A stretch of DNA of 63,260 nucleotides. Origin: Opitutales bacterium. GTDB lineage: Bacteria > Verrucomicrobiota > Verrucomicrobiia > Opitutales > Opitutaceae. Below are positions 4,332-10,775 of the stretch, one piece after another. The stretch is from assembly GCA_018700525.1 (NCBI GenBank), contig JABITN010000129.1:1-63260 (forward strand), in the 5' to 3' direction. The position numbers were made by a program, and so were the translations under genes. The notes under the pieces were generated by a model. The model did not search any database. It was not told the origin of the DNA and saw only the letters and a program-made list of their open reading frames with translations. The first letter of the stretch is position 1; each line of letters starts with the position of its first letter.

Positions 4332-4998
4332 CTAGGCCTCGCCAATTAGCTTAGCCGCATCCTTCCACCAGGCCTCCCCGTGTTCCTTAAGGCAGCGATC
4401 CGAAACCGACCAGGTACTCTTGTAATCGAGATACTGATTCAAACCCGAAAGGTTCTCTATCTCGAACTCAGGAGTTTCCAAACGATCGAATGGAAATTCG
4501 ATCGAACGATAGCCGTCCCACGCCAATCGATTGTGAGCTGACCAATACGGCTCAATGAAATCGCGTATCGACGATTTAGTGACTGCATCGACACTTGGAT
4601 TCACTTCATGCCAAGAATAGCAATAGCTGGCAAACACTCCCTTAGGCTTCAACGCTCGCCCGACTTCCGGCCAAAAACGATCTAGATCAAACCAATGCAA
4701 TGCCTAGGCAACACTCACCAAATCGAAGGAATTCGCCTGGAAAACCCGAGACTCCGCCGCTTTAACCGTAATCGTTTATCCTCAAAAGCCTGCTCAATCT
4801 GACCAGCGCTAAGATCGGTCGCTTCGACCTCACCGAAATGTCGAGCCAATCCGAGTGCAGCCTGACCATTACCCGTCGCACAGCCCCACGCACGCTCCTG
4901 GTTATCAGTCAAACTGGCTAGGTAATTGAACAAAGCTGTTGGGTAATGAGGGTGCGACGCGGCGTAGCGAATCGATCGAATAATTGGCCAGTTTCCAT
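4332..4998 (-). pseudogene. Broken class I methyltransferase gene (two frameshifts, one nonsense codon)
   Basis: Three reading-frame pieces on the minus strand join into one ordinary class I methyltransferase. The first piece (ATG at 4998) reads METGQLFDRFA; the frame shifts near 4960-4970 to give ASHPHYPTALFNYLA and WGCATGNGQAALGLA (degenerate SAM motif); it shifts again near 4770-4785 to give ITVKAAESRVFQANSFDLVS; then a TAG at 4704-4706 interrupts VA-stop-ALHWFDLDRFW, where the family has Gln (a CAG to TAG change). The C-terminal piece continues intact to 4332. Three independent lesions make a real pseudogene more likely than a sequencing error, but low-quality assembly cannot be excluded from sequence alone. 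Confidence 0.82.
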
Positions 4999-5050
4999 AG
5001 TACGTCCCACTAATAGACAAGCCGCCAAGCTTACAAGCTCTTCAATTCCG

Positions 5051-8818: not shown

Positions 8819-10177
8819 TTACGCGTCCATAGGCTTTTCCATAAGAGGAAGCCCAATACCGTTTCGAAACACTGTGACTTGTCCCGTACTCGAGGATACA
8901 GCGATTGCCAAACACTCCGTCGCCACGGAAATGGCCGCGCCTGCAGCGTGACGAGCCCCGAAGCCACTCGGCAGGGAATGATAGTAATCAGGAGCATGGA
9001 TCAAGCTCCCTGCCGAAACTAACACGCCATCGCCTCTTACCACAAATGCCCCATCAAGACCGGAGTACTCCTTTACCGTCTCGTCCATAAATGGGCTGAG
9101 CACATTACGATCTTCTTCCTTGTAGCCGTAAAATGGGTTTAGCACGAGTGGCTTGGTCAATTCCTCTACTCTTTTAGTAGCTCCCAGCACAAACAAGGTA
9201 CCAACCGGCCTTCCCTCGCGTCCCTCTACCGAAAGCTCCATCGCGATGCCGATCACCCTCTCGAGTACTTCAGGGGAAACATCGCCGGGCAGAAAGTCAT
9301 CCTGCTCCGCGAGCAAAGCCCGAAATTCATTACGCAAATCAATCACAACAACCGTATCGAATTGATCGCTCCCAGGAATACCTCCTATACAACAGATCTT
9401 TTCGTTTGTAGAAAAAACTCCCCGCGTAATCCCCACCAAAAATGCTGATCGAGCTTGCGCTAGACGACCTTTCGAAAACGAACGTACCTGAATAATATTA
9501 TCGAAGGGGGAATCATCGAAATCACCTTCTTTGGCCCGCCTCGTAACCAGAGCGGTCTTAAAATCCTTAAACCCCAATGGCGGCGCAACGGCGCTCGAAG
9601 CCAGTGTATCCCCAAATACGGCAATCGAATCGCAACCAGCTCCTTTGGCAATGCGCATACCCTGATTGAAAATTAGCTTATTGATCGAATTTTCCTGATT
9701 TTTGACGCCGCTAGTCAGAATACCGCCAAACCCCTGAGACAGGCGTTCGTACAGAATATCGGTATCCGGCGATTCAATCAGGCCTTCGATAAACCCTTGA
9801 TCCTTCACTAAACGAGCCACTGCCGCTAAGACGTTCAGATAATTCTTGGTGTTTTCTCCAGCGAGCATGAGAAGGATCAAGTGAACTTTCTCCTCCTTCT
9901 TCGGTCCCTCGTAACGAATGCCTTCTTTACTACGGCCGATCGCGAATACGTAACGACGCTTCATCTTCACCCTCAAGTGAGGCAACGCCACCCCATGCCC
10001 CAGATAGGTGGTCATGGTATTCTCCCGTTTGAGGAGGCCCGTCAGCAGGCTCTTTTTCCGCCCAAGCTCCTTGAAGCTGGCGGAAGACGCTTTCAGTAAC
10101 TCCTTCAGGCAGCCCTCTAAAGAATCGCTTTCGAGTTCAAGTACGCGTTTGCGTGAAAAATATCTATCTATTCGCAT
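8819..10177 (-). CDS. PTS EIIA-like / pyruvate-kinase-C-like / diadenylate cyclase fusion (DacZ-like c-di-AMP synthase)
   Basis: A 452-residue three-part protein. Residues about 1-150 are a PTS EIIA type-2 (EIIA-Ntr-like) domain with GHGVALPHL, where His67 matches the phosphorylated histidine. Residues about 165-290 contain GMRIAKGAGCDSIAVFGD, resembling the alpha/beta domain of the pyruvate-kinase C-terminus found in archaeal DacZ. The rest is a DisA_N diadenylate cyclase domain: REGRPVGTLFVLG, LDGAFVVRGDG (Asp375-Gly-Ala) and GARHAAGAAIS (Arg409-His410), the catalytic DGA and RHx motifs; the third residue of RHR is Ala, as I recall for DacZ-type enzymes. Expected to make c-di-AMP from ATP, with phosphorylation or ligand input through EIIA. 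No transmembrane segment. It lies 23 bp after nuoA and may be cotranscribed with it. Confidence 0.85.
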   Translation of the reverse strand: MRIDRYFSRKRVLELESDSLEGCLKELLKASSASFKELGRKKSLLTGLLKRENTMTTYLGHGVALPHLRVKMKRRYVFAIGRSKEGIRYEGPKKEEKVHLILLMLAGENTKNYLNVLAAVARLVKDQGFIEGLIESPDTDILYERLSQGFGGILTSGVKNQENSINKLIFNQGMRIAKGAGCDSIAVFGDTLASSAVAPPLGFKDFKTALVTRRAKEGDFDDSPFDNIIQVRSFSKGRLAQARSAFLVGITRGVFSTNEKICCIGGIPGSDQFDTVVVIDLRNEFRALLAEQDDFLPGDVSPEVLERVIGIAMELSVEGREGRPVGTLFVLGATKRVEELTKPLVLNPFYGYKEEDRNVLSPFMDETVKEYSGLDGAFVVRGDGVLVSAGSLIHAPDYYHSLPSGFGARHAAGAAISVATECLAIAVSSSTGQVTVFRNGIGLPLMEKPMDA

Positions 10178-10200: not shown

Positions 10201-10575
10201 TTATTTCTCCCAATCGAGGCCGCCTTTCTTCAATTCATAGACGAGCCCTACGACAAGTACGCCAAGGAAAAATAGAATTGGTCCAAGTATTGGCAAACCG
10301 TCAGCGAGAAAATCCCGATAGATCATCGCCCAGGGAATCAAAAACAGCACTTCGATATCGAAAAGAATAAAGAGCATCGCCGTCACGTAGAATTTGACTG
10401 AAAAGCGCGTGCTCGTCTTCCCATCCGATTTTACACCACATTCGTAGGGCGAATTTTTGATGCTACCCTGCGATCCTCGTTGGCCTAGAAAATGGCTCGC
10501 AACGAGAATGACCGCGGCTAGTCCGGCGGCGAATGCGATCTGAACAAGTACTGGTGCGAAATCGGAGACCTCCAT
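10201..10575 (-). CDS. nuoA: NADH-quinone oxidoreductase subunit A
   Basis: Membrane subunit of respiratory complex I (NuoA/NdhC). Three hydrophobic segments at about residues 7-27, 62-83 and 94-113 and the conserved loop motif KNSPYECGV (residues 39-47) with the Glu-Cys pair near the quinone site. Length 124 is normal. No other nuo gene is next to it: the diadenylate cyclase fusion follows, and rpsA lies upstream behind a terminator. Complex I genes are therefore split in this genome, or this is an extra copy; only the rest of the genome can tell. Confidence 0.93.
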   Translation of the reverse strand: MEVSDFAPVLVQIAFAAGLAAVILVASHFLGQRGSQGSIKNSPYECGVKSDGKTSTRFSVKFYVTAMLFILFDIEVLFLIPWAMIYRDFLADGLPILGPILFFLGVLVVGLVYELKKGGLDWEK

Positions 10576-10718: not shown

Positions 10719-10746
10719 AAAAAAAGCGAGCCTCATAGAGGCTCGC
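10719..10746 (-). terminator. Intrinsic terminator of rpsA
   Basis: Perfect 9-bp stem GCGAGCCTC / GAGGCTCGC with a 3-nt loop (10726-10746), followed on the minus strand by seven T residues (A-run at 10719-10725). Located 30 bp after the rpsA stop codon; it separates rpsA from nuoA. Confidence 0.92.
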
Positions 10747-10775
10747 CTTGAAAGTATTGATTCGAAGAATACAGG

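Follow-up and report, generated by a model that had tools for sequence, protein, structure and literature searches.

A PTS EIIA domain fused to a probable DacZ-type diadenylate cyclase is usual in Opitutales

In the order Opitutales, a type-2 EIIA domain of the PTS is usually joined, within one polypeptide, to a DacZ-type cyclase domain that probably makes c-di-AMP. The gene described here encodes a probable diadenylate cyclase of 452 amino acids and is found at positions 8819..10177, on the minus strand of the window, that is, the whole analysed stretch of 63,260 nucleotides from an Opitutales bacterium. This EIIA-DacZ fusion is real, usual in its order and uncharacterised. We consider it reasonably probable that its EIIA domain passes the state of PTS phosphorylation on to the cyclase, the protein being the end acceptor of a permease-free PTS.

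To our knowledge, it is not settled for most diadenylate cyclases which signal governs their activity. In the present case, the signal may be guessed from the fusion protein itself, and a single genome supplies EI, HPr, HprK, the EIIA-DAC protein and a PgpH-type protein. The PTS is tied to potassium through EIIA-Ntr. If the proposed reading is true, the PTS would be linked to c-di-AMP, the nucleotide controlling potassium, and a direct link between nutrient status and both salt and osmotic control is suggested. New here are the genomic setting of the fusion, with EI and HPr but neither another EIIA_2 domain nor PF02378, the linkage of its gene to nuoA and the repeated loss of His67.

Domain organization of the fusion

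The open reading frame starts with ATG and runs over 452 codons without interruption. It encodes three successive domains, all of which exceed their Pfam cut-offs. The EIIA type-2 domain occupies residues 1-150 (9728..10177, minus strand), with a PTS_EIIA_2 (PF00359) match over residues 26-148 (76.2 bits, cut-off 27). The expected phosphorylation site, His67 (codon at 9977..9979, minus strand), sits within GVALPHLR and aligns with the phospho-histidine of PtsN (3urr). The DacZ_P or pyruvate-kinase-C-like domain follows at residues 161-285 (9323..9697, minus strand), the Pfam match covering residues 168-285 (31.2 bits, cut-off 27.4). The DacZ-type DAC domain, residues 300-446 (8840..9280, minus strand), is matched by DAC (PF02457) over residues 316-440 (62.8 bits, cut-off 27). 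It contains the DGA motif at residues 375-377 (9047..9055, minus strand) and the RH of the GxRH motif at residues 409-410 (8948..8953, minus strand).

An AlphaFold2 model, built from 60 aligned sequences, recovers the three folds. Its mean pLDDT is 77.2 and its pTM 0.69, with pLDDT values below 50 at residues 152-161, 215-220, 395-406 and 449-452. Residues ~1-154 match EIIA-Ntr structures (4gqx, Z 20.6 over 148 residues). Residues 161-285 match the C-terminal domain of Mycobacterium tuberculosis pyruvate kinase (5ws9, Z 12.7, 3.2 Å, 120 residues). Residues ~290-449 match the DAC domains of CdaA, DisA and 2fb5, with Z between 12.4 and 14.7 among the matches listed. A sequence-only reading of this DNA had named an EIIA-Ntr-like domain with His67, a pyruvate-kinase-C-like domain and a diadenylate cyclase domain with DGA and RH at these very positions, the last two forming a DacZ-like core. 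Profiles and folds bear out each of these assignments, for the pyruvate-kinase-C-like domain at the level of the fold, and the order DacZ_P then DAC is that of a DacZ core.

Distribution in Opitutales and Verrucomicrobiota

The order was surveyed in 70 sampled genomes of Opitutales, the window's own genome included, and the phylum in 240 sampled genomes of Verrucomicrobiota, 39 inside the order and 201 outside. PTS_EIIA_2 is matched in 58 of the 70 order genomes. The full-length fusion is found in 55 of them, the PTS_EIIA_2 match then lying in ORFs of 444-492 amino acids. All 55 ORFs cover the family profile almost completely, starting within its first three positions and reaching its last few; for the window protein and 16 of the remaining 54 fusions, which are included in the 97 rows of the profile, this match is by construction. 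Two additional genomes (G249 and G277) carry the fusion gene in pieces on different contigs. Order-wide conservation of the full-length arrangement rules out a chance or chimeric ORF and an assembly chimera, and order-wide presence rules out a restriction of the fusion to the window's genome. Among the best 80 of 145 stretches, named relatives of the fusion are 55-79% identical to it over essentially the whole protein, and one, cut by its contig end, reaches 91%. Within the same best 80, most relatives carry the label Opitutae or Opitutaceae, and Pelagicoccus, Lacunisphaera and Puniceicoccaceae are among them.

The sequence-only reading had proposed a survey of this architecture. For the Verrucomicrobiota part, the fusion common in the order gives way outside it, mostly, to a DAC that scores like CdaA. 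Over the phylum, 232 of the 240 genomes have a DAC match. Inside the order (37 of 39 genomes), the best E-values range from 9e-17 to 6e-24, except in G223, which has two DAC matches, the best at 1.4e-31 and the other being the fusion. Outside the order, DAC is matched in 195 of 201 genomes, and in 193 at 5e-32 or better, a score as expected for CdaA. The CdaA form GTRHRAA...VSEE is indeed present at all five out-of-order loci inspected. The two weak out-of-order matches belong to G004, which has its own fusion of 472 amino acids, and to G155, which has EIIA matches in other proteins.

On a tree of the DacZ_P-DAC part, a supported branch (98/93) sets the 57 order fusions off from the other sequences. 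Two DacZ proteins devoid of EIIA, that of G275 and the second copy of G172, stand apart from them. The G004 fusion also falls apart from the order fusions, its placement being unsure because of its long branch. The two EIIA-less DacZ-type cyclases have 300-320 amino acids and are encoded at L209 5242-6201 (G275, where no fusion was found) and at L211 5238-6137 (G172, beside a fusion). In five genomes of the order sample (G001, G039, G048, G108 and G163), ORFs of 745-756 amino acids contain further EIIA_2 domains.

PTS components encoded beside the fusion

In the window's genome, the fusion is the sole PTS_EIIA_2 match. It is accompanied by one HPr, whose His and Ser sites read GIHARP and GKSIMG, respectively, by one EI of 588 amino acids with GSKTSH, and by an HPr kinase (HprK) with both domains. 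PTS_EIIC (PF02378) was not found in this genome, which is 96.47% complete. In the Pfam search, EI shows three PEP-utiliser domains only, and no GAF domain. Classical EI-Ntr carries an N-terminal GAF domain. The 'nitrogen status' input, which the sequence-only reading had offered along with carbon status, is therefore weaker.

Over the 70 order genomes, EI is matched in 57, HPr in 61, HprK in 59 and EIIC (PF02378) in six. EI is present in 49 of the 55 fusion genomes (no match in six) and HPr in 51 (no match in four), while EI, HPr and HprK occur together in 47; 49 have no PF02378 match. In 37 of the 55, no second EIIA_2 domain accompanies the fusion. In 30 of the 55, EI and HPr are present with the fusion as sole EIIA_2 domain, and 28 of these 30 keep His67. 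The EIIA and EIIC counts cover PF00359 and PF02378, and HPr may have further targets beyond these families, for instance of the EIIA-Man class. Of the six fusion genomes where EI is not matched, four have a size of 0.9-1.1 Mb, and the absence of EI in those six may be due to missing contigs.

Presence of the fusion goes along with that of EI, HPr and HprK (Fisher p 0.008, 0.010 and 0.0004, respectively, kinship ignored; G249 and G277 were left out, which gives 13 instead of 15 non-fusion genomes). These associations rest largely on G258, G266, G270, G271 and G280, genomes of 0.8-1.0 Mb that lack all of these components. In six other genomes (G244, G254, G255, G275, G281 and G288), two of them less than 85% complete, EI and HPr are present and there is no EIIA_2 match. 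These six have neither EIIA_2 domain nor fusion, and HPr must therefore serve something else there. Permease-free PTS chains are known, including in Planctomycetes and Chlamydiales (PMC2405797). Considering these gene contents, the presence of EI, HPr and HprK, of a sole EIIA_2 domain and of no PF02378 EIIC makes PTS control of the cyclase, already put forward by the sequence-only reading, more plausible.

Conservation and loss of His67

His67 is found in 127 of the 134 aligned rows and in 48 of the 55 order genomes. Over the EIIA domain, the mean share of the most common residue is 56% and the mean pairwise identity of the rows is 42%. The second pocket histidine of PtsN and EIIA-Mtl has a role in the phosphorylation pocket. 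Alignments to 3urr, 4gqx and 1a3a show that it corresponds in the fusion to Tyr113, present in 133 of the 134 rows. Phosphotransfer to the fused EIIA domain is likely to be ancestral and mostly kept.

His67 is replaced in seven of the 55 order genomes, by Tyr in five and by Ser in two, and these losses correspond to three changes on the tree. Four of the Tyr67 genomes form one family, in which EI and HPr are present and the EIIA domain has stayed conserved. Of the seven fusions devoid of His67, five have a remaining EIIA domain that is 37-40% identical to the others; in the two Ser67 fusions it is visibly decayed (29-31% identity). The fused EIIA domain would thus have some role that survives without phosphotransfer. 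It may then be imagined that it is not, or not chiefly, a phosphorylation switch acting on the cyclase in cis, but a protein-binding module, placing c-di-AMP synthesis beside its target, phosphorylation being secondary or lost. Unphosphorylated EIIA-Ntr binds potassium transporters or sensors. The three losses of His67, the identity kept by five of the seven domains concerned and the occurrence of fusions where EI is not matched speak for such a module, which nonetheless appears unlikely when the retention of His67 in 48 of 55 genomes is set against the mean share of 56% over the domain, and when EI, HPr and HprK are together retained in 47 of 55.

Two associations of His67 loss were considered and rejected. 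A loss of His67 accompanying that of EI has a Fisher p of 0.58 and at most one informative independent pair, and His67 is kept in five of the six fusion genomes that have no EI match. The loss of His67 and the absence of nuoA as a neighbour coincide in raw counts (Fisher p 0.006), but the tree leaves only three independent pairs, and this association was dropped as evidence.

Likely activity of the cyclase domain

Asp375, Gly376, Arg409, His410 and Ser428 are identical in all 134 aligned rows, the third residue of the DGA motif being Ala in 128 of them. In the alignment to Listeria CdaA, the full RHR and (V/I)SEE motifs of that enzyme are absent from the fusion. Thr102 before RH is replaced by Ala, the third Arg of RHR by Ala (the fusion reads RHA) and both Glu of SEE by Ser (the fusion reads VSSS). 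In CdaA, the second Glu of SEE is a metal ligand, and the main chain of the first makes contact with phosphate (PMC7288161). These replacements could be expected if the DAC domain were dead, or if it served as a sensor of ATP or c-di-AMP, the protein being then a regulator and not a synthase. However, several observations make this very improbable, starting with the five invariant residues. At the SEE motif, two proteins annotated as DacZ and encoded on Haladaptatus plasmids have SES, the metal Glu being replaced by Ser. They are relatives of the assayed Haloferax DacZ, not that enzyme itself, and the H. volcanii DacZ is described as an active Mn-dependent cyclase making c-di-AMP (Braun et al., 2019; PMC6741144). 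Because two haloarchaeal DacZ share it and the Haloferax enzyme is active, Ser at the metal-Glu position looks like a trait of DacZ-type cyclases rather than a sign of decay. Furthermore, the fusion is the sole DAC match in the window's genome (96.47% complete), where one PF07698 7TM protein of PgpH type is also encoded. Such a PF07698 protein is found in 52 of the 55 fusion genomes. In view of its residues and relatives, the EIIA-DacZ fusion protein probably makes c-di-AMP.

In six small genomes (G258, G266, G270, G271, G280 and G281), where neither EIIA_2 nor the fusion was found, the PgpH-type 7TM protein is kept.

Genomic neighbourhood

Directly upstream of the fusion gene and on the same strand lies nuoA, encoding Complex I subunit A (10201..10575, minus strand; Oxidored_q4, 108.3 bits). 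The two genes are separated by 23 bases and are probably co-transcribed. In the order, nuoA is upstream of the fusion gene, on the same strand, in 42 of the 55 fusion genomes, the G250 copy being only 26% identical. A terminator-like hairpin with a 12-bp stem and a T tail is located after rpsA (10723..10749, minus strand). It may set nuoA and the cyclase gene apart as a unit of their own; this is only suggestive, with four terminator-like sites found in the region versus 3.3 expected in shuffles.

Downstream of the fusion gene come rpmG (L33, recognized by eye) and, on the other strand, a gene for an Mrp/ApbC-type ATPase. In G283 (L141 3-2052), hprK starts about 16 bases past the stop of the fusion gene. 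This genome of about 1 Mb has a fusion with Tyr67 and no EI match; the gene order gives a hint that HprK and the EIIA-DacZ cyclase may belong together even there. Elsewhere in the window, at 4332-5020 on the minus strand, two adjacent short ORFs in different frames both resemble methyltransferases by eye and look like pieces of one broken gene for a SAM-dependent methyltransferase.

A proposed model for PTS input into c-di-AMP synthesis

In the proposed mechanism, phosphate would be relayed from PEP to EI, then to HPr, and finally to His67 of the fused EIIA domain. The DacZ-type cyclase would make c-di-AMP from two ATP, a dimer or oligomer bringing two DAC sites face to face. The phosphorylation state of EIIA would alter the activity of the DAC domain, probably via the arrangement of this dimer or oligomer. 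The action of HprK on HPr may constitute a further input, as may a ligand of the pyruvate-kinase-C-like domain. The PgpH-type enzyme would degrade the c-di-AMP produced. Of this scheme, the domains, the conserved residues and the gene contents are shown; that the protein is an active cyclase, that it receives phosphate, that this changes its activity in one direction or the other, and that it acts in potassium or osmotic control are inferences.

It is very improbable that the fused domain is simply the cell's regulatory EIIA, for instance a phosphate sink reporting PEP/pyruvate to other partners, with the fusion serving only to equalize dosage or location and no coupling to the cyclase: the 37 fusion genomes where it is the only EIIA_2 domain would suit this, but a separate EIIA_2 domain paired with a separate DacZ was not seen (among few genomes), G275 having a separate DacZ without EIIA_2 and G102 an EIIA_2 domain without a DAC match.

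Returning to a cyclase under PTS control, a bolder version may be envisaged, where the PTS of Opitutales has been rebuilt as an input line for c-di-AMP. EI, HPr and HprK, with no sugar permease, would feed an EIIA belonging to the sole diadenylate cyclase of the cell, and the PEP/pyruvate balance and HPr-Ser-P would then directly set c-di-AMP and, through it, potassium and turgor. This version is put forward tentatively as a possibility, and is the less probable in view of the six genomes in which EI and HPr occur without EIIA_2. If it is true, the receiver-synthase would be transcribed together with a subunit of Complex I.

Comparison with known systems

The sequence-only reading had not tied the fusion to a characterised enzyme. 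In this respect it has to be amended, since a catalogued class very probably covers the fusion. The DAC classes DacA-DacE and DacV-DacZ, taken over from Corrigan and Grundling (2013), are defined by the attached domain (Braun et al., 2019; PMC6741144). As DacD representatives, that article gives Lacunisphaera limnophila, Puniceicoccaceae, Coraliomargarita, a Verrucomicrobia and an Opitutae bacterium. These five named members, all of Verrucomicrobia/Opitutae, fall in the group carrying the EIIA-DacZ fusion, Lacunisphaera and Puniceicoccaceae being shared with the relatives found here. Because the classes are made by attached domain, and because of these listed members, the EIIA-DacZ architecture very probably corresponds to the DacD class already on record, the two being equated via member taxa and class scheme. 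In the literature searched, 'DacD' occurs together with 'c-di-AMP' only in Braun et al. (2019). Among the matches listed, with few subscription papers covered, there is no functional study of an EIIA-DAC protein; likewise, the matches listed include no study of the PTS or c-di-AMP in Opitutales.

The archaeal DacZ/CdaZ of Haloferax volcanii and Methanocaldococcus jannaschii are described as carrying, like the fusion, a PK-C-like domain ahead of DAC (Braun et al., 2019; PMC6741144). A Haladaptatus DacZ is 30% identical to the fusion over 240 residues and has the same replacement of the metal Glu of SEE by Ser. In contrast to the fusion, the two Haladaptatus proteins, with 268 amino acids, are too short for an EIIA domain. 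With the NCBIfam DacZ equivalog (NF041371), the fusion scores 99.8 bits, below the cut-off of 430.

With the CdaA (DacA) found in Firmicutes and in the other classes of Verrucomicrobiota, the fusion has in common the DAC domain and the expected synthesis of c-di-AMP. However, the input domains differ, and the fusion has changes in both RHR and SEE, motifs that CdaA retains, also at the five out-of-order loci inspected. The CdaA of B. subtilis is reported to be controlled by a partner protein, GlmM (PMC8573169).

As for the PTS side, PTS-Ntr and the EI-R regulatory PTS resemble the present system by an EIIA-Ntr fold, by no PF02378 EIIC and by an expected function in regulation, not transport. 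The present system differs from PTS-Ntr in that EIIA is joined to a second-messenger synthase and EI is without a GAF domain. Finally, in E. coli, the phosphorylation state of the PTS controls adenylate cyclase, and hence cAMP, in trans through EIIA-Glc. In the fusion, control is proposed to occur in cis and the nucleotide would be c-di-AMP. Were the PTS of Opitutales indeed a line dedicated to c-di-AMP, it would be the c-di-AMP counterpart of the EIIA-Glc/cAMP system, with receiver and synthase in one chain.
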